Positions 1 through 30,300 of a stretch of DNA of 39,628 nucleotides are shown here, in pieces. Below the pieces are notes generated by a model, which saw only the letters and a program-made list of their open reading frames with translations, did no database searches and was not told the origin of the DNA. The stretch's first letter is position 1. The number at the start of each line of letters is the position of its first letter. The position numbers were made by a program, and so were the translations under genes. This DNA is from a virus: the IMG/VR virus record IMGVR_UViG_3300027649_000533, positions 1 through 39,628 of that record. One strand, 5' to 3'.

Positions 1-223
1 GTGGTAGCTTTAAGTTTGCAGTAGGGTCTTGTTCTAGTGTTTGAATATTTTGCTGTAAATCTTCAGGCGTAAATTCATCTTCAGGAGTTGGATCATCTAG
101 TGTTATTTCTGGAACTTCTGTAGGCTTTTCATTTGACGTACTTTCATCTATTTCTTCATCAGCATATTCAGCTACAGGAAGACCAAATAAATTAAGTTGT
201 TTGTAAGCTTCTCTATACCACAT
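1..223 (-). CDS. Partial acidic protein of unknown function (3' end beyond window)
   Basis: An open frame starts at ATG 223 and runs off the left edge without a stop, giving about 74 residues. It begins MWYREAYKQLNLFGLP and then becomes very rich in Glu, Asp, Thr and Pro, so most of the visible part is probably a disordered acidic linker. The start lies one base after the stop of the GH73 hydrolase gene and has no Shine-Dalgarno site of its own, which suggests translational coupling. I recognise no domain. Being in one operon with a wall hydrolase, it could be a virion or lysis-associated protein, but that is only a guess from position. Confidence 0.6.
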   Translation of the reverse strand, partial: MWYREAYKQLNLFGLPVAEYADEEIDESTSNEKPTEVPEITLDDPTPEDEFTPEDLQQNIQTLEQDPTANLKLP

Positions 224-224
224 G

Positions 225-1151
225 TTAATCGTACTGTGTCAAGTTATAATCATTGATTATACTTTTGATTTTAGAAGGCTCTTTTTTATCACTTGAGTAT
301 CCCGCAGCAAAAATTAAATCAATAATTTGATCAACTGATAAATTCTCTTTGTCAAAGCCATATCTTCCACCATATTCTATTGCTTTTTGATATCTAGGGT
401 TTCTTTTAAGAAAATTTGGCAACGTAGACATTGCTGCAATTGCATCTCCTTCATATGAAGCAAATTCTGCATTTACTTTATATTTATTTCCTTCATCGTC
501 ATATTCATATGTTGGTAGAACAACTGAAGCTGTTGTCCCAGATGTTGAGCTTTGTTTTACACCAAAATAATTTCCATAATTTTTTGCCAAGATGCTGTTA
601 CCCCATCGTGATTCTAAAGCTGACATTGCAATTATAACAGAAGGTGGGATTACATTGCCTGTATTTGCTGAAGCTTGCTGAGCTGGTCCTACAAGCTTTT
701 CAATAAATTGCCCTGGTGTATTATCAGGACCTGAGCTTTCTAAAGGTACACTAACTTCTTCGCTTTGTATTAATTTCTTATACCAAGGTTGCTCATTTAA
801 AACATCAAAAACTTCAGATTCTAAATTGTTAAACCTTAGCTTATCTTCAGGTGACATTTCAGCTATTTTATCTGAAATTTTCTTTTTTAATTCTATATCC
901 AATCTTTTTCTTGAAATATCAGGGTCTCTTGAAAACATATCAAAAGCAAATCCTATGAAATATTTCATCACAGTATCAGGATCATTTTCAGCAACACCCT
1001 CATTAAGACTGAATGGTGGTGATGCTGGATCTACCTCATTTGCCTCTTCACTGGCAATTTTAATCAATAAATTTGATAAGCTATCAGCTCTATGATAAAA
1101 ACCTCTATCATCTAATTGCTTTGCTATACGGATTACTTTTGATATGCTCAT
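225..1151 (-). CDS. GH73-type glucosaminidase (FlgJ-like peptidoglycan hydrolase)
   Basis: The 308-residue protein has a C-terminal endo-beta-N-acetylglucosaminidase domain (about 148-305) of the FlgJ/LytF type. The signature SALESRWGNS contains the expected catalytic Glu180, followed by the NYGNYFGVK segment typical of GH73. These enzymes cut the glycan strands of peptidoglycan. There is no signal peptide or membrane segment, so it acts either as a virion-borne tail lysin or as an endolysin exported through a holin. Residues 1-36 form a separate helical tag (IAK.LD..GFY..AD.L) that reappears at the C-terminus of the protein at 10011-10622. Residues 37-140 look like an acidic linker. The start has a purine-rich site (GGGAAAG) about 9 nt upstream and diverges from the J-domain gene across only 38 bp. 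Confidence 0.85.
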   Translation of the reverse strand: MSISKVIRIAKQLDDRGFYHRADSLSNLLIKIASEEANEVDPASPPFSLNEGVAENDPDTVMKYFIGFAFDMFSRDPDISRKRLDIELKKKISDKIAEMSPEDKLRFNNLESEVFDVLNEQPWYKKLIQSEEVSVPLESSGPDNTPGQFIEKLVGPAQQASANTGNVIPPSVIIAMSALESRWGNSILAKNYGNYFGVKQSSTSGTTASVVLPTYEYDDEGNKYKVNAEFASYEGDAIAAMSTLPNFLKRNPRYQKAIEYGGRYGFDKENLSVDQIIDLIFAAGYSSDKKEPSKIKSIINDYNLTQYD

Positions 1152-1164
1152 TGCTTTCTTTCCC

Positions 1165-1189
1165 TATTTATTTCTTTTATAAATAGAAT
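1165..1189 (+). promoter_or_regulatory. Candidate leaderless promoter inside a 7-bp inverted repeat
   Basis: TATTTAT (1165-1171) and ATAAATA (1179-1185) form a perfect inverted repeat in the 38-bp gap between divergent genes. The right half is part of TATAAATA (1178-1185), which resembles both a sigma70 -10 box and a T4-type late promoter box. It ends 4 nt before the ATG at 1190, and TATAAA alone is followed by exactly six bases and then ATG. Transcription would start at or near the ATG. No Shine-Dalgarno site is visible for this gene. Function is inferred from spacing only. Confidence 0.45.
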
Positions 1190-2191
1190 ATGTCAGAAGA
1201 ATTCAACCCTAAAAAAATAATTGATTTCTCTAAAGATTATTATAATATTTTGGGATTAGACAAAATTGACCTTCCAAATGGTAGTTCGAGACAAGATAAA
1301 ATTAATACTTCAGAAATTATTGAAAAGGCATTTCGAAAAAAAGCAAGAACATGCCATCCTGATTTTGGTGGTAGTAATGAAGCTTTTTTGGATTTAGTTA
1401 GAGCTAGAAGAGTTTTAGAAGATCCATTACTAAAAAAGATATTTGATCAAGGACACTTTGAAGAGCGACAAATTGAAGAGGTCTTAAGTGCATTTCAAGT
1501 TGATTGGTCAAAAATTGGTACCTATCGTAAAGGCACACCAGAAGACACTATAGGTTTTTCATTATTTAATACAATTTGTGAAAATATAGAAAAAGATATA
1601 TTGGTACCAGCTTTTTTTCCAACTTCTAATGAGCATAATTATGAATGGGACTTTGTAATTAAAAGTGAAGAAAAGAGTCTACAAAAATTAGTTATATCAA
1701 TTGTAAATGATGAAAATGAAGTTTTAAGATTAACAAGTGGAGAAGATTTAGAAAAATCACTTCCATTTAAGATTTATATTTGTATACCTAAAGCAAGTCT
1801 AAGCTTCCTAAGAAAAGAAAATGCTGAATACACCCCGGACGGTAGAACTCTTGTAAATGGATATATCACTAAGGCTATATACAATGATTTGAATCTATTG
1901 GAGACAACTGATTTAGAAACAGCACATAATTTTATTATTGAGAATTTATTGTCAGACGTTCAACTAATCAAACAAGGCGAAACTGAAAAATTTCAATCTA
2001 AAAAAGGTTCTCAAACAAAATTCATGGATTCAGAAGTTATGAAGAGTTATGACAAAGAAAAGCTTTCATCAATAATAAATTTAAGATCATTTGCTTTGTT
2101 TAATAATGAAACAGCTGCAGACTTTATTGACAAAATTGATAATAATGACGTTGAAAAATCTTTAGATGGTAATCCTGACTTACCCTTGTGA
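1190..2191 (+). CDS. J-domain (DnaJ-like) co-chaperone with unknown C-terminal part
   Basis: Residues 15-88 form a J-domain: helix I (DYYNILGLD), then helix II leading into the HPD tripeptide at 56-58 (CHPDFGG), then helices III and IV (FLDLVRARRVLED). J-domains bind Hsp70 and stimulate its ATPase through HPD. The stretch between helices I and II is about a dozen residues longer than in DnaJ. Residues 90-333 contain no zinc-finger repeats and no substrate-binding domain I recognise, so this is a class C J-protein whose partner is unknown. The obvious Hsp70 partner is the DnaK encoded at 19281-21029. The gene lies 77 bp upstream of the PIN-PhoH gene on the same strand. It lacks a Shine-Dalgarno site and may be leaderless. 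Confidence 0.85.
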   Translation: MSEEFNPKKIIDFSKDYYNILGLDKIDLPNGSSRQDKINTSEIIEKAFRKKARTCHPDFGGSNEAFLDLVRARRVLEDPLLKKIFDQGHFEERQIEEVLSAFQVDWSKIGTYRKGTPEDTIGFSLFNTICENIEKDILVPAFFPTSNEHNYEWDFVIKSEEKSLQKLVISIVNDENEVLRLTSGEDLEKSLPFKIYICIPKASLSFLRKENAEYTPDGRTLVNGYITKAIYNDLNLLETTDLETAHNFIIENLLSDVQLIKQGETEKFQSKKGSQTKFMDSEVMKSYDKEKLSSIINLRSFALFNNETAADFIDKIDNNDVEKSLDGNPDLPL

Positions 2192-2267
2192 GAGGGCTGA
2201 GCGTTATCTTTTTGGAAATAAAATAAAGTGATCACAAACACACTCTTAATGCGAGGAGCTCAATAAT
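2192..2267. other. 76-bp gap with an 8-bp palindrome
   Basis: The gap between the J-domain and PhoH genes contains the perfect palindrome GTGATCAC (2228-2235) and a strong ribosome-binding site, GCGAGGAGC, that serves the TTG start at 2268. I see no clear promoter or U-tracted terminator, so the two genes may be co-transcribed. The palindrome could be a small operator, but nothing else supports this. Confidence 0.3.
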
Positions 2268-3635
2268 TTGGCAAAGCATATTTACATCATCGACACTTGC
2301 GTTTTTCTTCATGATCCCCTTGCAATATATAAATTCAATGATAATGATATATATATTCCACTAGCAGTAATTGACGATTTAGATGACATCAAAACAAGAA
2401 AAGAAAATGTTGGATGGGCAGCTAGAGAAGTATTTAGAAATTTAGAACACTACTCCTTACAAGACTTATTGAAGGGTGTTAAAATAAATGATCAAGGCGG
2501 AAGATTATTTGTTTACAACACTGAATCTCCTCTTCAAAAGAATGAAAGACCTAACATTGTCAAAGTTCACTCTGACAATGCAATTATCGAATCATGTTTA
2601 GCCTTAAAAGCAGCAAATCCAAGAAAAAAAGTTGCAATCATAACAAAAGATACTGGATTAAGAATTAGGGCAATTACATGGGGTTGTCAAGCTGAAAACT
2701 ATAAATCTGACCAATTGGAAGATCATTTATTCACAGGCCTTAGATATTGTGAAGTAACTGATGACGAAGATTGGAAAAAGCTTTGGGTAGACTTTGAGCT
2801 TGAAACTAAAACATTAAGCGAGTCACTATTAACAAGGCTTGGCACACTTTCTCCTAATGAATTTATTTTCTTTCAATATGGAGAAAAGATTTGCCCAGTA
2901 TTCCACAAAAAAGGCATCTTTAAGGTTTTAAAAGATAAATCAAATACAAAAGATGGAAAAGCATATTCAGGAATTCAAGGTAAAAACTTGGAACAAAGAT
3001 GTGCATTGGAAATTTTATGTGATTTAGGAATTCCTCTTGTAACTCTTTCAGGAAAAGCAGGAACAGGAAAATCATTCTTAGCTCTTGCAGCTGCTCTTCA
3101 AATGATTAATGAGGGCATCTTTGATAAAATTGTTGTTATGAAGCCTCTCATTCCAGTTGGTGGTAAAGACATTGGAGCACTTCCTGGTGACAAGTTTGAC
3201 AAAATTTCTGCTTGGTTAGGTCCAATCAGAGACAACATTGAACAAATCTTAGGTTCAAAATCTCTCAGATCAAATAATATGTTTGAGGAAATGTGCCGAG
3301 ATGGAATTATTGAAGTAGAAGCTATGGCTTATATTCAAGGACGCTCAATTCCAAGATCTATCATTATTCTTGATGAAGCAGAAAATATTTCACCAAGAGA
3401 AGCTAGGATGGTAGTGGAAAGATGCGGAAAAGACAGTAAAGTCATTCTTCTTGGTGACCTTTCACAGGTTGAAAACCCTTATCTTGATGCAAAGTCTAAT
3501 GGCTTAGCTCATGCAATTAGTGGTGGAAAGACTAATGATCTTGTCGCCTCTGTAACACTCTCAAAAGTTGAAAGATCAGAGCTTGCTTCTGCTGCAAGTG
3601 ATATTTTTAATAAACCTGAAGCAAGAAGAAAATAA
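2268..3635 (+). CDS. PIN-domain / PhoH-like ATPase fusion
   Basis: The 455-residue protein has the architecture of the PhoH2/YlaK family. An N-terminal PIN domain (about 4-150) starts YIIDTCVFLHD and carries the acidic VIDDLDDIK segment. The PhoH P-loop ATPase follows (about 235-455), with Walker A GKAGTGKS near 262 and Walker B IIILDEAENIS near 365. PIN domains are usually metal-dependent ribonucleases and PhoH2 proteins are described as RNA helicase-nucleases. A PhoH gene is very common in large phages, but its role there is unsettled. The start is TTG, chosen because GAGGAG sits 7 nt upstream and the family N-terminus (AKHIYIIDT) follows at once. The fibre gene begins 18 nt after the stop. 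Confidence 0.92.
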   Translation: MAKHIYIIDTCVFLHDPLAIYKFNDNDIYIPLAVIDDLDDIKTRKENVGWAAREVFRNLEHYSLQDLLKGVKINDQGGRLFVYNTESPLQKNERPNIVKVHSDNAIIESCLALKAANPRKKVAIITKDTGLRIRAITWGCQAENYKSDQLEDHLFTGLRYCEVTDDEDWKKLWVDFELETKTLSESLLTRLGTLSPNEFIFFQYGEKICPVFHKKGIFKVLKDKSNTKDGKAYSGIQGKNLEQRCALEILCDLGIPLVTLSGKAGTGKSFLALAAALQMINEGIFDKIVVMKPLIPVGGKDIGALPGDKFDKISAWLGPIRDNIEQILGSKSLRSNNMFEEMCRDGIIEVEAMAYIQGRSIPRSIIILDEAENISPREARMVVERCGKDSKVILLGDLSQVENPYLDAKSNGLAHAISGGKTNDLVASVTLSKVERSELASAASDIFNKPEARRK

Positions 3636-3652
3636 GTGATTGGTTGTAAATA

Positions 3653-6600
3653 ATGTCTCACGCTTTTATATGGACTGAAGTTAATCCTGATACAAATCAA
3701 AGTGATGTTCAACGAGAAATATCAAGTGCTGGTTTCGGGACAAACGTCTCCGGCACTTGGACCAAAAAATTATATAGATTAAAATGGGTAAATTCTAGCG
3801 TTGAAAGCATCAAAATTTGGCTTGATAATGAGTTTGCAGACATATTTACAACCCAACACTATCCTCTTATAAAATCATCTAATGGGACCAAAGTTTTTAC
3901 AGACCTTGGTTTTGACATTAGGTTCACACTTTACGATTCATTTATCATTAATGAATTACAAAATGCTGATGCAGCCACTGTATCGAATTTATCAACTGGA
4001 ACTCTTGGATCAGAGACATTCTTGATTTCTTCAAAGTATATTGATGGATATTCATTAGACTATAATAAAAATATTTTGGTTAAGTCCCAAACAGATAAAA
4101 CACAAAATGGATTTTATACTGTTACAAATCGAGCTGGCTTTGGCTCTCTTGGCCCAGTTAGATCTGAGGATTTAATTACTTTTGCTAAAATTGTTGCTGT
4201 TGGGTCTTCATCTTACTATGCATACAATACATTTTATCAACCATTTGAAACAGCACAATTTGGATCTACATCTGTCAAATGGGTAGATAGAGTTACAACA
4301 TATCAATTAAGTAATGTAGTATGTGCAACTACTGAAAATTTATATCAATCTTCTGCTGGACTAAGTGCGCCATCAAGTAAAATTGATAACTTTACTCTTT
4401 CGTTAAATGACAGAGTACTTGTAAAAAATCAAACTACACAATCCCAAAATGGAATTTATTTTGTTAGTAGTCTGTTCAAACCAAATTCATCTTTTATTGT
4501 AAATCCATATACAAGCACAAACACTTCTGATGATTTTTGGGATACAGCTATTAATTATATTAATTCAAATAATAGCCTAAATATTCAAAATATTAATTCT
4601 GGTATAGCTTACAGTGGATCATATTTCAGATATTTTAGTGGAACAGCATTAACGGGTGGTATTGCATCAACATCATCTTTAGCATGGACTGAAGCTACAT
4701 TCAATTATGCAAACACAAATGCAGATTATTATTATGAAATAGCATCCACTAGTGGTTTAGGATTTAGCTTTGATTATTCATCAAATGCTGGAACACTAAC
4801 CTCAACACCATATACAATTGTAAATTATTCAGGAATTGCCACTACACTAAATGTTAATGAGAGAATATTAGTAAAACATTTTAATAACAGCTACAGTGGA
4901 ATATATACAGTTCAAGGTGTTGCTATAGGCACAACCGGGTTTTGGACAAGATCAACTTCGCACGATACAGCTAGCGAAATAGTACAAACAATAGTCAAGG
5001 TTGCAAACAGTAGAAATACCAACAATGGAAATATTTGGTATTTAGGAAAAGAAACAACGCATAAAAACAATTTTATCTTAAACTTTGATAATATTGTTGT
5101 TCAAGATAATTTTTATCCTTACACATATGAGCCAGTTACAAATTTACTTTCCACAAATGCCTCAAGCTTAACAAGTGTAAACTCTAATCTTTTTGCTCAA
5201 TCAGGAATTGCAATCTCTCAGAGAGTTTTAGTCTCTGGCCAATCATCTCAAGCACAAAATGGTATTTATCGAGTAGATGCTGTAAATGACTATGTTTCTG
5301 GTGTTGAATTTGCTCCAGACTATTCAATTAAAAGAGGTTCTATTGCAAGAATTACTGGTGGAAATATTGGAGCAGGAACAACATATTTCTTATATGCTGA
5401 TGGGACTTCTACTTCTGCGGGATCTGTAGGAGCAACATGGGTAAATATTACTTCAACGAGAAAATATTATTGTGGCGCTAGAACAACATTAGATAAATTT
5501 TCATCTACATTTTACACACCAAATGATTTTGATGTTGCTGTATCTGTCGGCAGTACTGTTTTAGCTAACACGAGTAATCAGCTTTATAATGGCATATATA
5601 CTGTTTCATCTCTTGGCGCATCTGAAAGAATTGCACTTGATTTTTCAGATGGCCTAGTAAGCTGGTCAAGAGATATTGTTGAAAATGTCCTTGAAACAAG
5701 TACAAGCTCATATACAGTCTCCCCTAATCTCAAAAAACAAATTAAAGGCGTACTTCAATATAGTTCAATTGGTTCTTCTTACTATGGAGAAGTTTTTGTG
5801 CCTGAAGTCATATTCACTTCTACTCCTAATTACCAAGAATTCTTTGGGGATGAAAGCAAAACTAGCTCATTTATTCAAGAAATTGATATAGATTGGCATG
5901 AGCAAAATTATCAAAAATATAATGTAGCTGCTGTTTATTTTGCAACAAGTGCTAGCGGATTACCAACATCAGCAGGAACAGCAATTTCAAGTAGAGTGAC
6001 TAATTTTAGCGGAAGTGGTATGACATTACTTCAAGCTAATGACAGTGTGTTAGTGATGATAGGCACAGGCACAACTTATTCCTACAATGTTCATAATGGT
6101 ATTTATAGACCATCGTTCACTGGTATTGGAAGTGTCTATTTTACTCCGCATGAAGATTTTGACTACACAACAAAATATACGCCAAATACAAATAATAAAG
6201 CATTAGCATCTCCTTATGAGAGACCAACATTAGTAAAAATTGATTCCGGGTATATGTCTGCTAAAACAAATCCTAGTACAGATTTTGTTTATATGCAGGG
6301 TGATTTAGGATTTAGAACAGCCTTATTTGGAGCAACTTACACTACAGCTGACAGTCTTTCCCTCCTGCACACTGGATCTGAAATATTCTATAGTGGATCA
6401 GAAGTTACAATATATCCTAATAAAAATTCATTGGGATATTTTCCAAAAGTAGCACCAATTCAACATTTACTCGAAGCTAATATAAATTTAGACACAGTCA
6501 GTGGTGACATTGTAATTGTAAAAAGATCTGGATCTCAACTATTTAGCACAAGATCTGGTGATACGACCACTTATTATTATGAACTTGGAGATAGAGTATT

Positions 6601-9463
6601 TTATTACTCGGCAACAGAAGATGAATACAATTCTTCTGTCAGACAATCTACAAGTGGAATATACCAAATAGTTCATATTGACACTAACTTCAATTATTAT
6701 CTGCGTAAAGTAAAATATAATGCAACTAATGGTCATTTAGATCATGCAAAAAGATTAGTTGAGCAATCTTCTGACAGTTCATATATCTACTTATCAAGAC
6801 CAGAAACTCCGTCATCAGTATATACATGGTCTAATGTCAATTATCCAGACAATTTATTAGATGTCTATGTTGTATCTACTGGCGGAACAGTTATTAATCA
6901 AACTTATGGGGTCACATACACTGTAGATGCCAAAAATGGTAAACTAAATAAAATTGGTGCTGGAGTTTGGACTGGTACTTTATATGCTTACCTTTATTTA
7001 GATTCAACTACGCCTAAATACAATCAAGAACCAAAGCAAACAATAAATAGATATTTCAATTTCAATGTTGTTTTGCGTGATAGAGCAATAGCAAAAAATT
7101 CATCACCTAAGGCTTTAAACACTCCAAGAGCAGACAACACATATTTCCAGGTTGTTAATAAAATTGGAACAGCTACCACCACAGATATCAAACTTAACAG
7201 AGACAGAAGTTCTTGGTTTATTTCTCAAACAGGAAATAATTATTCTGAAAATGTTACGCATGTATTAACGTCTAATTCTAATTCAGGCTATTTCTTTACT
7301 GAGAGAATTTCACAAGATGGGTATTATAAATCTGCGGGTTCTTCTGTAACATCAATATTTAACAATACTAGTTTGATTGATCCTGTAAGCAAAAAAGATA
7401 TTGGAATCTTTACTGGAGACATTTATCTTAGAAATGTTGCTACAGGAGGAACTGTGTATGATAACTGGTTCTCCGGATTGGCAATTACAACAAATGAAAA
7501 CATAATTGTAATTACAAATAAGACTACGACAGACTACCAAGATAGATTTATTGAAACAAATTTAATAAGCTCTTACTACAATGACAAAAACATACTCGTA
7601 AATCACGATAAAGCGGGTAAAAGAGATCAAAAGGTATATTCGTACAAAAGATCTGAATATCAAGCCGTAACACTATCATATGCTAGCTCTTTTGGCAGTA
7701 CAGTTGTTGCAAGTCAGGCATTCTTAAACAATTCAGCTGGAGTTGGTACTTTTACTCTCTATTACAACCCAATCAATACAAATAGAGACACATCATACAA
7801 GACATGGATTGATCACAGTATAAGAACAGAATTTATCTGTGCTGCAGGAACGACATCTGTAGTAACTGACTTCAATAATATAACCTATACTGGAGTCATT
7901 ACTCCAATGGGTATTGTTCCAGGATCTGGTTCAACTGCTATAATAGATGGTGTAACTTTATCTGTAGGTGATAAATTACTTGTTTCATCTCAATCAGACA
8001 AGACAGAAAATGGTGTTTATTCTGTTGTTAGTAATAGCCTGTTATCATTGACAAGGGCTTCTGATTTAGATGCATCAGCTGAATTAAGACCATTAGGAAG
8101 AGTTACATTCAATAATCAAACTTTTGAATTATTGTTACCTAATAATATGTCATCATATAGTTTGGGAACAACTGCTCAATTCTGGAAAGCATTACAACCA
8201 GAATTTACAATCAATGTTTCTGGAATTGCACATACTAATTTCTCATCGCTTTCAATACTTCCAGATGAGATAAATGGATATTCAACCCAACAAAATGATA
8301 AAATTTTCTTTTTAGGCCAAACAAGTACTGCAGATAGAATTGTTGCAAGAATTAATAAAACTGAAAATCCAAGTTTAGCAAGAGTTAATGCTGGATCTGG
8401 TGTCACACAATTTACTATAACCAATTGCTTTACCACTGATACAAACAGAAGCATTAGCTATGAGCTTTATTTTGATCCTTCACTAACATCTCTTGAAACA
8501 GATTCTATCCAGTGGTTTAGAAGATCATTTATCACAAACTATACTGCGTGTTCATTTGGAACTACAGCAAATATTAGCTTATCTTCAAATCCATTCTTTA
8601 GTGGAATAAAGCTTGGTGATAGAATTTTAGTTAAGAATCAATCTACAGATACTCAGAATGGCATCTATTCACTTGACGAATTGGTAACTTTTTATCTTTC
8701 AAGACATCCTGATTTATCTTCATCATCACAAATTTCAATTGATAAGAGAGTGTCTGTACTTAATGGAAACACTGCAACTGGATATTATGGATTAATATTT
8801 GATGAATCTGGAACTCCTGGTTTAGGAACTTCTAACTTATATTGGGCAAAAGTTAGTGGGACACCATACCTTGTAAATGTTAGAGCAGCTTCATTCGCAG
8901 ACATAAACTTAATTAGCCCTCCAAGTTCACTAGATGGCGTGAATCTTGAAAAGCTTGACAGAATTTTACTCAAAAATCAAACAAACAACACTCAAAATGG
9001 AATCTATGTAGTGTCAGCTATTGGCTCATCAAACTCATGGATAAGAGCTGATGATCTTAATGCAAATTCTGAACTTGTACCTCAGCTTTCAGTAAAGGTT
9101 GGAGCTGGTACTACAAATATAAACAAAAACTTTAGAATAAAATTATCTGTGCCTAGAGATCTTACAAATACTCAAACAACTGAATATATTTTGGGAACTG
9201 ACAGTATTCAATGGATTGACACAGAAAATAATGAATTGTATGACTCATCTCCTGAACTTTGGCAAAAACTTGAGTCTGGATATGATAGTGCAGTTTACTT
9301 AGGCAATGCAAAACTTAGTGTGAATTCAATAGCGAAAAGCAAAAGTTTTGGTATTGCAATTAGAACACCACCTGCTTCTAGTCTTTCAAATTTTGACATT
9401 ACAGACAATGGCAAAGTAAGAGGATTAAACTTCAAAGTAGAATATAAAACCGTAAAAGATTAA
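3653..9463 (+). CDS. Giant repeat-containing virion protein, probable tail fibre
   Basis: This 1936-residue protein is rich in Ser, Thr, Asn, Gly and Tyr, as phage fibre and baseplate proteins usually are. A module with core (I/V)LVKNQ(T/S)...QNG(I/V)Y.V recurs near residues 141, 254, 404 (degenerate), 523, 634 (degenerate), 1441, 1657 and 1770. Variants near 798 and 981 keep only the NG/SG-IY end. The module is familiar from tail fibre proteins of many phages. The N-terminus (about 1-95, MSHAFIWTEVNP...) is different and may be the virion attachment domain. There is no signal peptide, catalytic motif or transmembrane helix. The start has no good Shine-Dalgarno site (TTGTAAATAATG). A direct role in receptor binding is inferred. 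Confidence 0.8.
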   Translation: MSHAFIWTEVNPDTNQSDVQREISSAGFGTNVSGTWTKKLYRLKWVNSSVESIKIWLDNEFADIFTTQHYPLIKSSNGTKVFTDLGFDIRFTLYDSFIINELQNADAATVSNLSTGTLGSETFLISSKYIDGYSLDYNKNILVKSQTDKTQNGFYTVTNRAGFGSLGPVRSEDLITFAKIVAVGSSSYYAYNTFYQPFETAQFGSTSVKWVDRVTTYQLSNVVCATTENLYQSSAGLSAPSSKIDNFTLSLNDRVLVKNQTTQSQNGIYFVSSLFKPNSSFIVNPYTSTNTSDDFWDTAINYINSNNSLNIQNINSGIAYSGSYFRYFSGTALTGGIASTSSLAWTEATFNYANTNADYYYEIASTSGLGFSFDYSSNAGTLTSTPYTIVNYSGIATTLNVNERILVKHFNNSYSGIYTVQGVAIGTTGFWTRSTSHDTASEIVQTIVKVANSRNTNNGNIWYLGKETTHKNNFILNFDNIVVQDNFYPYTYEPVTNLLSTNASSLTSVNSNLFAQSGIAISQRVLVSGQSSQAQNGIYRVDAVNDYVSGVEFAPDYSIKRGSIARITGGNIGAGTTYFLYADGTSTSAGSVGATWVNITSTRKYYCGARTTLDKFSSTFYTPNDFDVAVSVGSTVLANTSNQLYNGIYTVSSLGASERIALDFSDGLVSWSRDIVENVLETSTSSYTVSPNLKKQIKGVLQYSSIGSSYYGEVFVPEVIFTSTPNYQEFFGDESKTSSFIQEIDIDWHEQNYQKYNVAAVYFATSASGLPTSAGTAISSRVTNFSGSGMTLLQANDSVLVMIGTGTTYSYNVHNGIYRPSFTGIGSVYFTPHEDFDYTTKYTPNTNNKALASPYERPTLVKIDSGYMSAKTNPSTDFVYMQGDLGFRTALFGATYTTADSLSLLHTGSEIFYSGSEVTIYPNKNSLGYFPKVAPIQHLLEANINLDTVSGDIVIVKRSGSQLFSTRSGDTTTYYYELGDRVFYYSATEDEYNSSVRQSTSGIYQIVHIDTNFNYYLRKVKYNATNGHLDHAKRLVEQSSDSSYIYLSRPETPSSVYTWSNVNYPDNLLDVYVVSTGGTVINQTYGVTYTVDAKNGKLNKIGAGVWTGTLYAYLYLDSTTPKYNQEPKQTINRYFNFNVVLRDRAIAKNSSPKALNTPRADNTYFQVVNKIGTATTTDIKLNRDRSSWFISQTGNNYSENVTHVLTSNSNSGYFFTERISQDGYYKSAGSSVTSIFNNTSLIDPVSKKDIGIFTGDIYLRNVATGGTVYDNWFSGLAITTNENIIVITNKTTTDYQDRFIETNLISSYYNDKNILVNHDKAGKRDQKVYSYKRSEYQAVTLSYASSFGSTVVASQAFLNNSAGVGTFTLYYNPINTNRDTSYKTWIDHSIRTEFICAAGTTSVVTDFNNITYTGVITPMGIVPGSGSTAIIDGVTLSVGDKLLVSSQSDKTENGVYSVVSNSLLSLTRASDLDASAELRPLGRVTFNNQTFELLLPNNMSSYSLGTTAQFWKALQPEFTINVSGIAHTNFSSLSILPDEINGYSTQQNDKIFFLGQTSTADRIVARINKTENPSLARVNAGSGVTQFTITNCFTTDTNRSISYELYFDPSLTSLETDSIQWFRRSFITNYTACSFGTTANISLSSNPFFSGIKLGDRILVKNQSTDTQNGIYSLDELVTFYLSRHPDLSSSSQISIDKRVSVLNGNTATGYYGLIFDESGTPGLGTSNLYWAKVSGTPYLVNVRAASFADINLISPPSSLDGVNLEKLDRILLKNQTNNTQNGIYVVSAIGSSNSWIRADDLNANSELVPQLSVKVGAGTTNINKNFRIKLSVPRDLTNTQTTEYILGTDSIQWIDTENNELYDSSPELWQKLESGYDSAVYLGNAKLSVNSIAKSKSFGIAIRTPPASSLSNFDITDNGKVRGLNFKVEYKTVKD
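4073..9010 (+). repeat. Degenerate protein-level repeats of the LVKNQ...NGIY module
   Basis: Copies start near 4073, 4411, 4862, 5221, 5551, 7972, 8621 and 8960, each followed by a segment of about 60-150 residues of beta-rich sequence. They are conserved as protein (hydrophobic-LVKNQ, polar stretch, QNG-IY-V) but not as near-identical DNA, so the duplications are old. Two further copies are in the minus-strand giant gene near 35945-36005 and 33310-33365. Confidence 0.8.
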
Positions 9464-9476
9464 TATTATAAAGGTA

Positions 9477-9505
9477 TTGATTATTCTAAGGTAAAAATAT
9501 AGTAT
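9477..9505 (+). promoter_or_regulatory. Possible sigma70-type promoter
   Basis: TTGATT (9477-9482) and TAGTAT (9500-9505) are separated by exactly 17 bp in the 68-bp gap before the gene at 9532. Each hexamer matches consensus at four of six positions. No hairpin terminator separates this site from the fibre gene, so it would add to read-through transcription. Weak evidence. Confidence 0.35.
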
Positions 9506-9531
9506 TAACAATTTATCAAGAGAGATAAAAA

Positions 9532-10011
9532 ATGGCAAATTTAGAGGCACAACTTCATACACTTTTAGAAGAAATAGCACCAGAAGCTCACAACTTTGAA
9601 GAGCAAGCTCTCATCATAGCAACAGCGGCTTCAGTCATCAATAAAAGATTTACTTCAAGAAGGTTAGCCAAAATAGATAATAAAACTATTGAAGCCCATA
9701 TGACAGATGCATTATTAGAATCAATGTGTGCCTCCAATTCATGGGCTGATGATAGTTCAGATGATTATTTTGATGCAAGAGGAATGAGTCCAGCCGTCCT
9801 TATTAATAGGGTGGCAAAATCTAATCAAAATAAGTGGGGTAAGATGGAAATCTTGAACACTGAAGATTCTGAAGAAGATGACAAAGAATTCACTGATGAA
9901 GAAATAGCTGAAAAAGCTACTATGCAAAATGCACAACAAACTAATGAAGTTTTTATAACTCCAGGCAGAGGCAAGTTTTATACTGACTCTATATCAGATG
10001 CTGTAAGATAA
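9532..10011 (+). CDS. Small helical protein of unknown function
   Basis: 159 residues. The first 70 are predicted helical with many Ala, Leu and Glu (MANLEAQLHTLLEEIAPEA...), a middle region is Asp/Ser-rich, and the end is acidic and probably disordered. I recognise no family. A purine-rich GAGAGAT lies about 8 nt upstream of the ATG. The stop TAA shares its last A with the ATG of the next gene (TAATG), so the two are translationally coupled and likely work together. Position between a fibre gene and the topoisomerase operon makes a virion or assembly role possible but unproven. Confidence 0.75.
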   Translation: MANLEAQLHTLLEEIAPEAHNFEEQALIIATAASVINKRFTSRRLAKIDNKTIEAHMTDALLESMCASNSWADDSSDDYFDARGMSPAVLINRVAKSNQNKWGKMEILNTEDSEEDDKEFTDEEIAEKATMQNAQQTNEVFITPGRGKFYTDSISDAVR

Positions 10012-10622
10012 TGAAATTTATAAAAGTAGCTGCACCTCCAGGATTAACAGGCGGACCAATGGGAATGCTTGGTTCAGACTTAGGGTTAGGTGCCGCTCCT
10101 CCTCCTATGCCCACTGCTCCAACTGCAATGCCTGGTCCTACTGAAAAAGTAATCAAACAACCATTGACAAACTTGGGACTGATTCTTGCTGATGTCAAGA
10201 TTGAACAATTGCTCATGGAATATCTTGGTAGCAATGAATTAGAAATTGCAAATGAAATTTGGGAAATGTATGGCGGAAATGAAGATGGAAGTGTTGATGA
10301 ATCAAAGACCGGTAAGAGATTAGAAGACAAAGAAGCTTCTGATGATGAAGTTGAAGATACCAAAAATACAAAATGGCAAAGACTTCCACAAAATAAAACA
10401 CTAATGTCATTAAACCCGCCAGTAACTCTTGATAAATTACACAACGCAGTTAAATATTTATCTTTTGGAATTGCAAAAAATAAATCAAAAGAACAAGGTG
10501 CTGCTGCTGGCGGTGGTGGAATGCCAGGGTTAGCATCATACAATTACAGAAACATGGTAAAAATTGCTAAAATTCTTGATAATTTGGGATACTACAATAT
10601 AACTGATCGATTGATGCCATAA
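10011..10622 (+). CDS. Protein of unknown function with Gly/Pro/Met-rich N-terminus and C-terminal helical tag
   Basis: 203 residues in three zones. Residues 1-45 are low-complexity Gly/Pro/Ala/Met. Residues 46-160 are a mixed helical core containing an acidic stretch (DESKTGKRLEDKEASDDE). The C-terminus is a Gly-rich hinge followed by YRNMVKIAKILDNLGYYN. That last segment matches the N-terminal tag of the GH73 hydrolase at 225-1151 at I-A-K, L-D, G, Y, D and L. Translation is coupled to the preceding gene through a one-base overlap. No enzyme motif is visible. The tag suggests a shared binding partner or packaging signal (inference). Transcription of this gene probably ends at the hairpin at 10652-10685. 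Confidence 0.75.
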   Translation: MKFIKVAAPPGLTGGPMGMLGSDLGLGAAPPPMPTAPTAMPGPTEKVIKQPLTNLGLILADVKIEQLLMEYLGSNELEIANEIWEMYGGNEDGSVDESKTGKRLEDKEASDDEVEDTKNTKWQRLPQNKTLMSLNPPVTLDKLHNAVKYLSFGIAKNKSKEQGAAAGGGGMPGLASYNYRNMVKIAKILDNLGYYNITDRLMP

Positions 10623-25117: not shown

Positions 25118-25130
25118 AAGAACATTATAC
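25118..25130 (-). promoter_or_regulatory. dnaJ start element shared with dnaK
   Basis: On the minus strand GTATAATGTTCTT directly precedes the dnaJ ATG. It has TATAAT (25124-25129), six bases, then ATG, and no ribosome site. It overlaps the TAA stop of the upstream protease gene. The same element with one extra A lies before dnaK. Confidence 0.55.
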
Positions 25131-25796
25131 TAATTTAGAAATGAAATCTACAATCTTATTGGATGGGCTAATTGAATTTTCCCCAATACCAATGTCTGAA
25201 TGCTGTCCAGTTACACCCATGACAATACCATAAACTAAACCATCAATTCCTAACACCATTCCACCTGATGACCCCTCTAAAATATCTGCATCAATAAAAA
25301 TGATATCTTGCCAAGCTTTTGAAGGAGCTTGATCTCCTAATGTTTGATGAATATTTGATACTCTACCAACAGTGGCAGTGTCGTGAAAGCCTTCTGGAGA
25401 TCCAATTACAACTACAATATCACCTAACTCTAAACCGCTACTATCTCCAAATTCAAGCTTTGGGAACGATTTAGCAGATTCACAATATATTGATCCTGTA
25501 TCAATATCAGGGTTGGAGGCTATAAATTTTGCGGGAAAAAATGATTGATTATCAAAAGTAACATTTATTTCTGTAATTGTTTCATCTAAAGGAACTACAT
25601 GTCCAGCGGTAATAATCAAGCCTTCCCCAACGTGAAATCCACTTCCTGACCATTGCTTTCCACTAGATTTACAATAAATAGAGCAAGAAGACTGAAGACC
25701 CCGCTGTATTGTTTTTTTAATGGGGTCATCAGAAACAGGAGCTTGTGCCTCTTTAATAAGTAGGTCTAAATAATTTACGTCTAACTTGAAATTCAT
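25125..25796 (-). CDS. Trypsin/HtrA-fold serine protease
   Basis: 223 residues, a chymotrypsin-fold protease without a PDZ domain. The triad is visible: His66 in ITAGHVV, Asp99 (SNPDIDTG) and Ser177 in EGSSGGM. The Ser motif (GSSGG) is the HtrA-like form. There is no signal peptide, so it works in the host cytoplasm or in the virion. Residues 5-18 ([14 protein letters not shown]) precede the protease fold and might be a tag or propeptide; IKE-A also fits the cleavage rule of T4-type prohead proteases (I/L-X-E, then a small residue). The start overlaps the signal peptidase stop (ATGA). Targets are unknown; clearing misfolded proteins together with DnaK/DnaJ, or virion maturation, are both plausible. 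Confidence 0.85.
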
Positions 25797-26257
25797 TTTA
25801 TCACTTTGTACATTAACTGTTCTTTGTAAATTGGTCCAAACCTTCTGCTATCATCTGAATTACTATGATTATCACCCACTACGTAATATTCATCCTTAGG
25901 TATTTTATGCTCAAAAATATTATCACCATGAATATGATAGAACTTTAGCATTGTTCTATAGGAATTATCATAAATTAATTCAGCGTAGTAAGGATTACTT
26001 TCAAGAATAAAATAATAATAATATTCTTCTGGCATAAATAATATTCTTTTGATAACGATTTCTTCAAAATCATTTCTGAATACTACAATATCTCCCTTTT
26101 CAAACTTAGTGACTTTTTTTGCCAACACAATCTGGCCATTCTTTAGCGTTGGATACATTGAATTACCCAAAACTACTATTATTTTATATGGTTGAAAATA
26201 TGCAAAGATTAATAATAGTAAGCCAATCAAACATGAAACAAAAAATTTTTTATTCAT
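25793..26257 (-). CDS. Signal peptidase I (S26 family)
   Basis: 154 residues, with an N-terminal membrane anchor (about 4-22) and the S26 catalytic boxes: box B GNSMYPT with nucleophile Ser33, box D VIKRI with general base Lys70, and box E VVGDNHSNSDDSRRFG (126-141). It is shorter than E. coli LepB (324 residues), near the size of Gram-positive SipS-type enzymes. Signal peptidase I removes signal peptides from exported proteins at the outer face of the inner membrane. AGGTGA lies just upstream of the ATG. It is followed by the trypsin-like protease with a 4-nt overlap. All catalytic residues are intact, so it should be active. Confidence 0.93.
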   Translation of the reverse strand: MNKKFFVSCLIGLLLLIFAYFQPYKIIVVLGNSMYPTLKNGQIVLAKKVTKFEKGDIVVFRNDFEEIVIKRILFMPEEYYYYFILESNPYYAELIYDNSYRTMLKFYHIHGDNIFEHKIPKDEYYVVGDNHSNSDDSRRFGPIYKEQLMYKVIK

Positions 26258-26326
26258 ACTTCACCTCTTTAATAATAAAGAAGAGCTGAAGTTCATTTTT
26301 TTATTTATCTCTAAGCTCTTGAAATG
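26258..26326 (-). other. Spacer with a long-loop inverted repeat
   Basis: AAGAGCT (26281-26287) and AGCTCTT (26314-26320) are complementary across a 26-nt T-rich loop on the plus strand. This could be a weak terminator between the subtilase and signal peptidase genes or a processing site. The rest of the 69-bp gap holds the AGGTGA ribosome site of the signal peptidase gene. I see no convincing promoter. Confidence 0.3.
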
Positions 26327-27280
26327 TTACTGATTTTTCTCAGTAATCTTATTCCAATCAACATTGCAAAATTTAGGAACACCAAATCCCCAATTAGTTT
26401 GATCTCCTTCAATAATATTTCCAGTTTGAAGATAAGATCCAAATTCGGAAATATTATCTAAAGCTAAAAGCATATCAATATAATTTTCAATTTTACGAAC
26501 TTCATTTTGCTTCTTGAGTAATGAAATTATCAATGCACAAATTCCAGCAACAAAAGGAGCTGCTTGACTTGTACCAGACATTTTGCAATACTCATTATTC
26601 AAATAAGTGGAATACATATCAACACCGGGAGCAACTGAATCCACTTGCTGTCCTCTTGAAGAAAATTTAGCCATTTTGCCATGTTCATCCAATGCAGCAA
26701 CAGCAATCACTTCATCATATCTAGCTGGAAAATTAACATTAGCTGAATCATTCCCAGCTGCAGCAATAATAATAATGCCCTTATCGGTAGCTTGCTTAAC
26801 AACATCATACAAAGACTGTGGAGGTTCACTCGGACTACCTAATGACATGTTAATAATATCAACATCTAATTCCATTGCTTTTTTGATACCATTTATAATA
26901 GCTTCATAGCTTCCAGAACCATCATTATCTAAAACTTTGATAGGATATATTAAACAATTTGGAGCAATACCAACAACACCAAAATCATTATCTGTGGCTG
27001 CAATAATTCCAGCTACATGAGTTCCATGACCGCTATTTTTATCTTCCCAAGAATCATTGTTTGAACAATTAAATGCCTCTTTCCATTGTCCTTCAAGATC
27101 TACATGTTGGCAAATTCCGGTGTCCAAAATAGCAATTTTTACACCTTCGCCTTTAGTGAATTTCCATGCATCACTTACCATGGCTGCACTTAATCCCCAA
27201 TTTTGAGTTTGTGATAAAGATTGAAAAGGAACTGAAACAACTTTCAAGTCTTCTTCTGGAATGAACTGTATTTTTTCCAT
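26327..27280 (-). CDS. Subtilisin-like serine protease (S8 family)
   Basis: 317 residues. The subtilase triad is complete: Asp53 in AILDTG, His85 in GHGTHVAG and Ser238 in SGTSQAAP; the oxyanion Asn177 lies in AAGND. There is no signal peptide and only a short leader before the catalytic domain (1-45), close to intracellular subtilisins. ATG 27280 was chosen because GGAG lies 7-8 nt upstream. The frame is open to 27385, but that start would run into the giant adhesin gene and lacks a ribosome site. It might process the giant adhesins encoded just upstream, or degrade host proteins; the sequence does not say which. Confidence 0.92.
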   Translation of the reverse strand: MEKIQFIPEEDLKVVSVPFQSLSQTQNWGLSAAMVSDAWKFTKGEGVKIAILDTGICQHVDLEGQWKEAFNCSNNDSWEDKNSGHGTHVAGIIAATDNDFGVVGIAPNCLIYPIKVLDNDGSGSYEAIINGIKKAMELDVDIINMSLGSPSEPPQSLYDVVKQATDKGIIIIAAAGNDSANVNFPARYDEVIAVAALDEHGKMAKFSSRGQQVDSVAPGVDMYSTYLNNEYCKMSGTSQAAPFVAGICALIISLLKKQNEVRKIENYIDMLLALDNISEFGSYLQTGNIIEGDQTNWGFGVPKFCNVDWNKITEKNQ

Positions 27281-27332
27281 TTTTTTTCTCCAATACAGAA
27301 TATTATTCAATTTTTCAGAAATACATTTCCTT

Positions 27333-30300
27333 TTATAGGATATGAATAATGCTGCTTTCGATAGGAATTCCATAGGTTTGTCCATTATAGGGGGTGACTT
27401 TGAATGAGAAAGCTTTACCGCTTGTTACATAGGAATAATTTAATATATTTCCTTCTATTATTTTACTAGTTTTCCCATTAGTCCACTCATACCATTCAAC
27501 TATTGACTGATCTGTACCAAAATTTGAATTATTGAAAACATAATAAGCATCAAGTTGTGATAAAGATTGAATTGTATTATTATTTATATTTAATAATGAT
27601 TTAATTTGAACATCATAAACATAAGGAGCGGGTATATCTTTTAAAATTATATCTTCTGTTGTATATATTATGCCATAGTCTATTGAATCATATGGCTCAA
27701 TTGTTGCATATATAATATCGTTCTCAATAAAATAGTTATTATTCTCAAATAAATCAGATTTTTTCTGTACTATTCTGTTTCTGTAATTTGGACTAGAATC
27801 TAATTCTATGGTGGTAGTCAATATTCCAGAAGTTCTAGATCTATACCATTTAGTTCTTGGATAGAATTCTTTCGCATTGATGTCAGATTCAAATGCATAA
27901 TCAAGATACATTCTAGAACTTATAGAAACTTGATTAGAAGATCCTATGCTTACATATTTTTCTTCTGAGTTGATTTGAAATGAGTTTGTTTTTATGCTCG
28001 GAATAGGAGTTTGATTGAGTTTAAAGATAATATCAGAGTTTGGTATTGTATTTTTGGTAAATCCAAAATTATAAACTTTTGAAGATGAAGAATTGTAATC
28101 TTCCACTTTCAATCCAATTCTATAATAATCTGAGCCAAAGATAGATGCGGTTATTTTAGAATTTGAATTTTGCTTTTTATCAAATATAATAGATCCAGAT
28201 TCTCTTTCAACTTTGTAATTGTTTCTTTGTATTACATTGTCTACTAATACAACAACTTTAGAGTCATTTGGCCATCTTCCGTTTACAACAAAGTAAGTGA
28301 CATAATCAGAGGTGACTGTTCCCTCTCCATAAGATTCATACCTTGATTTGGGTTTTGTAATCTTGACATTTACAGTGTTGCCTGAAGAAATTGGATTAGT
28401 GAATACAATATTCCCATTTACATTGTCAGTTCTGTAACTTGTTGAGGGCAAAATTGTGTTATTAACAGTCACTTCAACTGAATCAATAATATCCCAAGTA
28501 AATTTATTTCCATTAAAATAAATTATGTAATTGTAGTCATTTTCTAGAGATTTTAATGCAACTAAAGAATCATAAATTACTGGATTTGTATATTTATATG
28601 ATTGTTGTCTATTCGCTAAAATTCCATTTTTATATGAAAGAATTTCTTCGTAATCGTTCCAATTAGTAGAATCTCCTTGACATATACCCCATGTCAATTT
28701 AGCCTTGTCAAAATCAGTGTAATCTGTGCCAAGAATGTATTCTAGGATATTATTTGGATTTAATATTGGATCTGAATACAAATAATTTATAGCAGGAGAA
28801 ACTTCTGTATAGTAAAGCTTTTTGACATAAGGTACTACTCTTGAAGAATTATGGTAGTTCCATCCTTCTTTGAGTGTAATTTTAAAATCGAGATTAGTTA
28901 CTTCTTTATTTAAATTATATGTAGTTGAAAAGGATGCCCAATCAGTGAATGTATTTTTATCTGTTGAGTATCTGAATTCAACCAAAACAGAACTATCTAC
29001 ACTTTGCCCAATAGAAGAAACGAATTCTGTGGTTATAGATTTTAAGTATTTTGCTGAAGTGAATTCAATATTTCTTGTCCATTTAGCAGAAAATAAATTG
29101 TTATTTCCACCATGTATTAAAGAATCCAAAGAACTATCCCAAGCTGAATTTGAATTTACATCAAAATATAATGAATCATAACTTTGATCAAGTAATCTTA
29201 AATTATCTCTATCGCCACATCTATCGGGATTTAGATAAATAAATTTTGATCCTAATCCGCTCCAACTGTATTTGATATTTTTTATTACATCTGTTGTATC
29301 GGATGAAATGTTGTCCCCATCAGAAACAACAAACATGACAGGAATAAAAGATTTAGCCCATTTATCAAGCATATATTCTGAAGCACTGGTATTTGAGGGA
29401 ATTGTATCTATTGTGCCGTCCCAGTCTTCTCTCAAATTTAAAACAACTTCGTCTGATGAAATAATAGGGGTAGAAAATGATACTTGCCCTGTTGTTGGAA
29501 GTAAAGTATAGCCTGAATTTAAAACTGTATTATTTTTTACTACTTCAGCATATGGATAAAGAGAAGATGTCCATGTAAATGTATTAGAATCATCAACAGA
29601 AAATACCAATGTAGTTCCGGTACTTGATCCTGTTTTTGGACTAAGAGTGACTTGTAATCCACTCAAGTTTTTATATTTATCTTTTATGTCGGACAATCTT
29701 AGAAGACTATTTTCTGCTAAATAATCTCTTATAATTGTTAGTCTAGATTGATTAGTTGAAGAGGATTCAGTTTCACATAAATCTTTGACAGATTGCTTTT
29801 CTAATCCAGTAGACGCTATATTTACTGTGTTAAACAGTTCAGATTTAGTGCCTTCCAAACGTAAATTTGTAATTCCGTTTGTAATTGCCGTTCCTGATCC
29901 TGTGAAGCCTGTCGAGCTTACATGTTTTACTGATGTACCAAATGACCATAAATCATACAAATTGAAATCATTATTGTATGTATCACCAGGACTTGTATAT
30001 GAGGTAACGGTCTTTCTTACTCTAGATGTTAATGTATCAACAATGCTATTAAACTTTATCTTGTAATCATTATCTGAAAGCAATTTTGACATTGATTGAG
30101 AGTCATCAAATACAATTGGAGATACAAATTTAGAATCAAGCTTAAGATACCCATCATCATTTACAACAAGACCAGTGTATTCTCCAAGCTCCCAATTAAC
30201 TTCTGTATTATCATTGTTTCCTATTACAGTGATAGTTTCAGTAGGTGCAAAATTATTATCGTAATGAACCTTGAAGAAGAAATCAAAGCTTGTATTAATT

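Follow-up and report, generated by a model that had tools for sequence, protein, structure and literature searches.

A two-helix tag that recurs at the ends of unrelated proteins in a group of related large phages is probably a removable label, which sends proteins into the phage head for delivery into the bacterium, because the same hairpin stands on the ends of unrelated proteins and finishes in an apparent site for the head protease. It is described here starting from a 39.6-kb virus record (IMG/VR IMGVR_UViG_3300027649_000533; "the window" denotes this whole stretch), which contains genes for GyrB/GyrA, PhoH, DnaK/DnaJ, tail-fibre-like proteins and several proteases, and in which open reading frames (ORFs) and start codons were called mechanically. 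As read from sequence, the shared segment would be a portable capsid-targeting propeptide cut off by the prohead protease, in function akin to the capsid-targeting sequence (CTS) of phage T4, from which it differs in sequence, fold and position; we assign this reading a probability of about 0.68.

An earlier note on this DNA had placed two copies of the tag at the N-terminus of a GH73 protein (225-1151, minus strand; sequence MSISKVIRIAKQLDDRGFYHRADSLSNLLIKIASEE) and at the C-terminus of a 203-amino-acid (aa) protein (10011-10622, plus strand; end reading ...GLASYNYRNMVKIAKILDNLGYYNITDRLMP), and both were located there, with the nine matching positions it had counted recovered as nine identical residues in a 17-residue core (IAKQLDDRGFYHRADSL versus IAKILDNLGYYNITDRL). 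Its limits for the first copy (residues 7-26) were too short, as the hairpin runs on to about residue 33. The shared segment is not a product of chance, because an independent profile of 77 tag rows, from which both window proteins and all their relatives had been excluded, singled out these two proteins as the only matches among the 265 window ORFs scanned (E 2.3e-5 for the GH73 protein and 1e-4 for the 203-aa protein, next best 1.3). The GH73 protein is assigned as a glucosaminidase by PF01832 (69.3 bits, cut-off 30.2), and no relatives were found when viral contigs were searched with it as query. The 203-aa protein starts with a short K-x-(A/S) element (MKFIKVAA), followed by a Pro/Gly-rich linker, a conserved core and a second linker ending in (M/L)-A-S just ahead of the C-terminal tag, which is kept in the orthologues despite the variable linker preceding it. 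This protein has no PHROGs family, and its AlphaFold2 model was poor, with a predicted confidence score (pLDDT) of 55.

For the tag itself, AlphaFold2 was given an alignment of 48 tags, taken from a wide range of proteins, and confidently predicted a two-helix hairpin, with helices at residues 3-15 and 19-38 and a pLDDT of 93-98 over the first 30 residues. Folding of the hairpin is thus predicted not to require the protein body.

Relatives of the window were found using the PhoH protein, which gave six related contigs of up to 358 kb, and the 203-aa orthologue with its C-terminal tag is present in all six. An iterated tag profile run over all ORFs gave 36 matches above 27 bits, with the next at 7.9 bits or less and reversed sequences at 6.7 bits or less. 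Seven further records were added (G013, G016, G017, G018, G020, G025 and G026), and the resulting 14 related large-phage records contain 99 tag copies on 98 proteins, with 22 copies in the 358-kb relative G004; after masking of the tag, the 98 proteins fall into 61 clusters without detectable mutual similarity. Pfam and PHROGs searches with the tags alone returned nothing beyond weak, chance-level matches, tblastn of the tag consensus and one tag-like sequence against a phage collection gave no match because the query was too short, and no published description of these tags came up in our literature searches. Because amphipathic helices carry little information and start codons were called mechanically, the tag could have been a chance likeness of two such helices or an artefact of ORF calling; this explanation is already refuted and its probability is negligible, as accepted matches in the 14-record set all exceed 10 bits and most exceed 17, compared with 6.8 or less in reversed proteins, and the independent profile recovers the window copies. 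A DNA pattern for the tag core found 34 stretches in IMG/VR, most with a terminally tagged ORF; the six matches that it gave across 257 Gb of genomes from bacteria and archaea included no true tag, which also speaks against chance.

The tags are concentrated at protein ends, with 69 N-terminal and 17 C-terminal copies (86/99, versus 19% expected; binomial p 9e-48 with copies treated as independent), so the excess of the pattern at protein ends that the earlier note proposed to look for is present, and it extends over the 61 unrelated clusters. The number of clusters carrying the hairpin, a block of adjoining small tagged genes at 145-152 kb of G004, and proteins with three (L073:5214-6761:+) or two (G017_53881, 338 aa) hairpin copies, mostly internal, would also fit a small mobile helical domain that is spread by recombination and serves dimerisation or stability, with no address function. 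We consider such a domain very unlikely, given the strong confinement to ends and the conserved motif at the junction between tag and body, and given that the tag is retained on one side when catalytic domains are swapped. The window GH73 protein and a G003 protein are 40% identical over residues 1-166 and end in different domains, the catalytic domain behind the kept tag being GH73 in the window and GH108 in G002/G003, and in a G013 protein the tag is followed by a stretch which by eye resembles the GH108 domain of G003, without the shared middle part.

Behind the hairpin, (K/R).(A/S) occurs no more than 20 aa past the AD column in 61 of the 69 N-terminal tags, compared with a mean of 19 and a maximum of 30 after shuffling; it stands mostly at one of two offsets and often with Q or S next. 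The head block of G004 contains a 1379-aa protease-scaffold fusion with a head maturation protease domain (phrog_18299, E 3.7e-20), the portal, terminase, a 284-aa capsid protein and an acidic 562-aa protein, which we take as scaffold candidate from its position and composition. When all 400 spaced residue pairs were counted blind in the set of the 1379-aa and 562-aa proteins, R.A was the leading pair (25 versus 7.9 expected, p 9e-7), and when all proteins of at least 200 aa were ranked per genome for (K/R).A enrichment, the scaffold candidate and the fusion took ranks 1 and 2 in five genomes (G004, 185 proteins ranked; G005, 87; G013, 203; G016, 173; G026, 68). The pair K.A was top in Tunturi_5 gp332 and in gp19 plus gp21 of phage G, whose gp19 belongs to the same head maturation protease family (phrog_18299, E 2.6e-19), and K.A or R.A was also top in mycobacteriophage I3 gp103 and Rhodococcus phage Finch gp17. 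As positive control, the same blind pair scan was applied to T4 gp21, gp22, gp67 and gp68 and gave I.E first and L.E second, which is the known gp21 motif. Limiting the site to K.A was considered and rejected, R.A being the stronger pair in the present group. From the coincidence of the junction motif with the signature of the scaffold candidate and protease fusion, we infer that (K/R)-x-(A/S) is the cleavage site of this protease family and the place where the tags are cleaved. A cut propeptide on the major capsid protein was considered and rejected, the 284-aa protein matching a head-protein family over almost its full length.

The earlier note had left the tag as either a docking or a packaging signal for the virion, and of these packaging is favoured and has partial, indirect support, as the junction corresponds to the pair most enriched in the scaffold candidate and fusion, and a conserved 150-aa protein with an N-terminal tag lies within or near the head block in six records. 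The long protease-scaffold fusion was also found in 8 of 27 further tag-bearing records, namely in each of the three that exceed 300 kb and in five smaller records. A hairpin that is not removed and docks proteins to another shared partner (for example a tail or neck part, a replication compartment, a membrane or a chaperone) would explain why cell-wall hydrolases of types common in tails are among the tagged proteins, why most tagged genes lie outside the head block, and why some copies are internal, a position at which cleavage would cut the protein in two; the predicted folding of the hairpin on its own would suit it as well. Such docking does not predict a head-scaffold signature at a near-fixed offset behind the hairpin. 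C-terminal copies of the 203-aa family, moreover, stop right after the hairpin end AD-R-(I/L)-(L/M) while N-terminal copies run on into (K/R)-x-(A/S), and we regard docking as rather unlikely.

Several observations weigh against a removable capsid-targeting propeptide. About a tenth of the copies look internal, some through wrong start choice (13/99 are non-terminal; in 3 of these 13 a methionine lies a short way upstream, and the internal position may be an artefact of start choice). The statistical match between the junction and the protease-substrate signature holds in the main clade and is weak or absent in G018, G017 and G020, with the scaffold signature being weaker or absent in the distant tagged phages G018 and G017, and no protease of the phrog_18299-type family detected in the tagged G020. 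The major capsid protein is without a propeptide, and the hairpin is absent from the cultured relatives phage G, Tunturi_5, I3, Finch and Skog, therefore protease and hairpin do not always go together. The (K/R).A ranks and other enrichment tests are not fully independent because they use related genomes, and the motif class was chosen after the tags had been seen, the spaced-pair scan being blind.

Shorter N-terminal elements share the (K/R)-x-(A/S)-type ending with the hairpin tags. The looser segment that had been noted at the start of the window trypsin-like protease (Trypsin_2, E 7e-20) is not a complete hairpin. It has an L-(I/V)-K-x-(A/S)-Q element at the N-terminus, which matches the end of the hairpin tag and is conserved, the orthologues found keeping L(I/V)K(T/E)(S/A)Q, with LRIAQ in G013; the segment is a short sub-type of the tag. 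A second class, MWY(K/R)x(A/S), is represented by the fragment next to the GH73 gene, whose orthologues start with MWY(K/R)xA followed by acidic low-complexity sequence, and the gene beside the tagged hydrolase starts with MWY(K/R) in the window, G003 and G016. In the G004 proteome, 14 of 22 WY(K/R) tripeptides are N-terminal, and a G004 Nudix hydrolase (L021:17894-18268:+) has the N-terminus MWYRYS. Of 459 phage G proteins encoded in the first 400 kb, 19 have a start resembling MKRLIKK(A/S), compared with 0.5 expected for a pattern chosen after inspection of the N-termini, and several of these continue with HGTS-type motifs. Both MWY(K/R)x(A/S) in the records analysed here and the MKRLIKK(A/S) start of phage G appear to be alternative labels.

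A 436-aa protein of G004 (143701-145011; L022:3701-5008:+) has FIKISQ at its N-terminus and, at its C-terminus, a copy of scaffold residues 623-735. Scaffold pieces of this kind, which correspond to fusion residues ~623-738, may give other proteins a second route into the core. The same protein has a YYHGT motif which may mark an ADP-ribosyltransferase, with no family match. Alt, which T4 packages and which carries a CTS, is an ADP-ribosyltransferase. The scaffold piece also stands alone, as G016_32945 (116 aa).

We infer core binding, packaging, cleavage and delivery in the following order. Newly made proteins with the hairpin at either end, or with a short label such as MWY(K/R)x(A/S), would bind the prohead core, with the scaffold or protease-scaffold fusion as most plausible partner, and would be enclosed as the shell forms. 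The head maturation protease would then act on (K/R)-x-(A/S) sites, breaking up the scaffold and releasing the cargo from its tag, comparable to T4 gp21 at (I/L)-x-E, and the released cargo would be delivered along with the DNA. This cargo would include cell-wall hydrolases, a trypsin-like protease and a Nudix enzyme, as well as possible ADP-ribosyltransferases and many proteins without an assigned function. A wider proposal, for which we see the chances as evenly balanced, is that several uncultivated jumbo phage lineages share a general capsid-import code, in which the prohead core recognises interchangeable terminal labels (the N- or C-terminal hairpin, MWY(K/R)x(A/S), L(I/V)Kx(S/A)Q and the phage G MKRLIKK(A/S)) and a protease specific for (K/R)-x-(A/S) removes them. 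If so, the proteins that a phage packages and injects could be listed from sequence alone by their labels, which would predict the head cargo of uncultivated jumbo phages, including many proteins without assigned function. It would also give a testable specificity for the whole head-protease family, to which proteases of phage G, Tunturi_5 and cluster C mycobacteriophages belong as well, and the tag could serve to load chosen proteins into large capsids.

Table 1. Coordinates of tag-related features in the window and, for the last row, in related records.
Feature	Position	Strand	Basis
N-terminal helical-hairpin tag, GH73 protein residues 3-32, ISKVIRIAKQLDDRGFYHRADSLSNLLIKI	1056..1145	-	Profile E 2.3e-5; AlphaFold2 of tag alignment
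Predicted prohead-protease site at GH73 tag-body junction, K31-I32-A33 / S34	1050..1061	-	Junction motif
Tagged peptidoglycan hydrolase, GH73 catalytic domain residues 157-304	225..1151	-	Pfam PF01832 E 6e-19
C-terminal helical-hairpin tag, 203-aa protein residues 180-202	10548..10616	+	Profile E 1e-4; kept in orthologues
203-aa protein, function not assigned	10011..10622	+	Orthologue alignment
Short N-terminal element, trypsin-like protease; predicted site K15-E16-A17 / Q18	25743..25796	-	Orthologue conservation
Fragment beginning MWYREA, second N-terminal class; adjoins GH73 gene; cut by window end	2..223	-	Orthologues
C-terminally tagged family of ~900-1000 aa	L018:14640-17492:- and neighbour (G004 74637-80511); G016 34141-42563		

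The family of ~900-1000-aa proteins with a C-terminal tag (Table 1) occurs as two or three tandem copies per genome and gave no match in PHROGs, Pfam or, by profile search, PDB. In the window, three protease genes lie side by side at 25125-27385 on the minus strand, encoding the trypsin-like protease, a signal peptidase I (S26) and a subtilase. The 793-aa portal of G004 (L017:8121-10499:-) has a C-terminal restriction-endonuclease-like stretch (residues ~706-777), which is unusual for a portal and matches DUF559 above the cut-off (E 4e-6) and MTES_1575 just under it (E 6e-9). A prepilin-like protein is encoded at 142190-143086 on the minus strand of G004, and may hint at the host.

Among known systems, scaffold-linked capsid proteases that cut after alanine, as proposed here, are represented by the herpesvirus maturational protease and scaffold. 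The herpesvirus site is (V/L/I)-x-A/S, cut between A and S and without a basic residue two places before the alanine, and we know of no cargo tags of the hairpin kind in herpesviruses. The proposed function of the tag parallels that of the CTS of the T4 internal proteins IPI-III and Alt, which is cut by gp21, with Alt also being cut C-terminally (PMC9026906). Like the CTS, the tag is a short terminal peptide common to unrelated proteins of one phage (61 clusters and 86/99 copies terminal in our records). The CTS ends in the site of the phage's own prohead protease, and the tag may do so too, going by the statistical match in the main clade. The T4 CTS is N-terminal, 10-19 residues long and ends in an (I/L)-x-E site, whereas the tag is a hairpin of ~30 residues, found at either end of some 20 proteins in each genome and predicted to lead into a (K/R)-x-(A/S) site. 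The tag profile had no match in the T4 genome, and we therefore class the tag as working like a CTS, and not as its homologue. Giant phages offer a second likeness, since head and inner-body proteins of phiKZ and SPN3US have propeptides that are thought to target them to the prohead (PMC5694885). Many SPN3US propeptides exceed 100 residues, their cut sites end in x-E, and a portable tag common to many unrelated proteins has not been described for them; the tag profile had no match in phiKZ. The closest isolate by major capsid protein is Bacillus phage G (Donellivirus; 48% identity over the full length), in which protease and scaffold candidate are on separate genes, unlike the fusion found here, and which shares the protease family (gp19) as well as the K.A signature (gp19 plus gp21).

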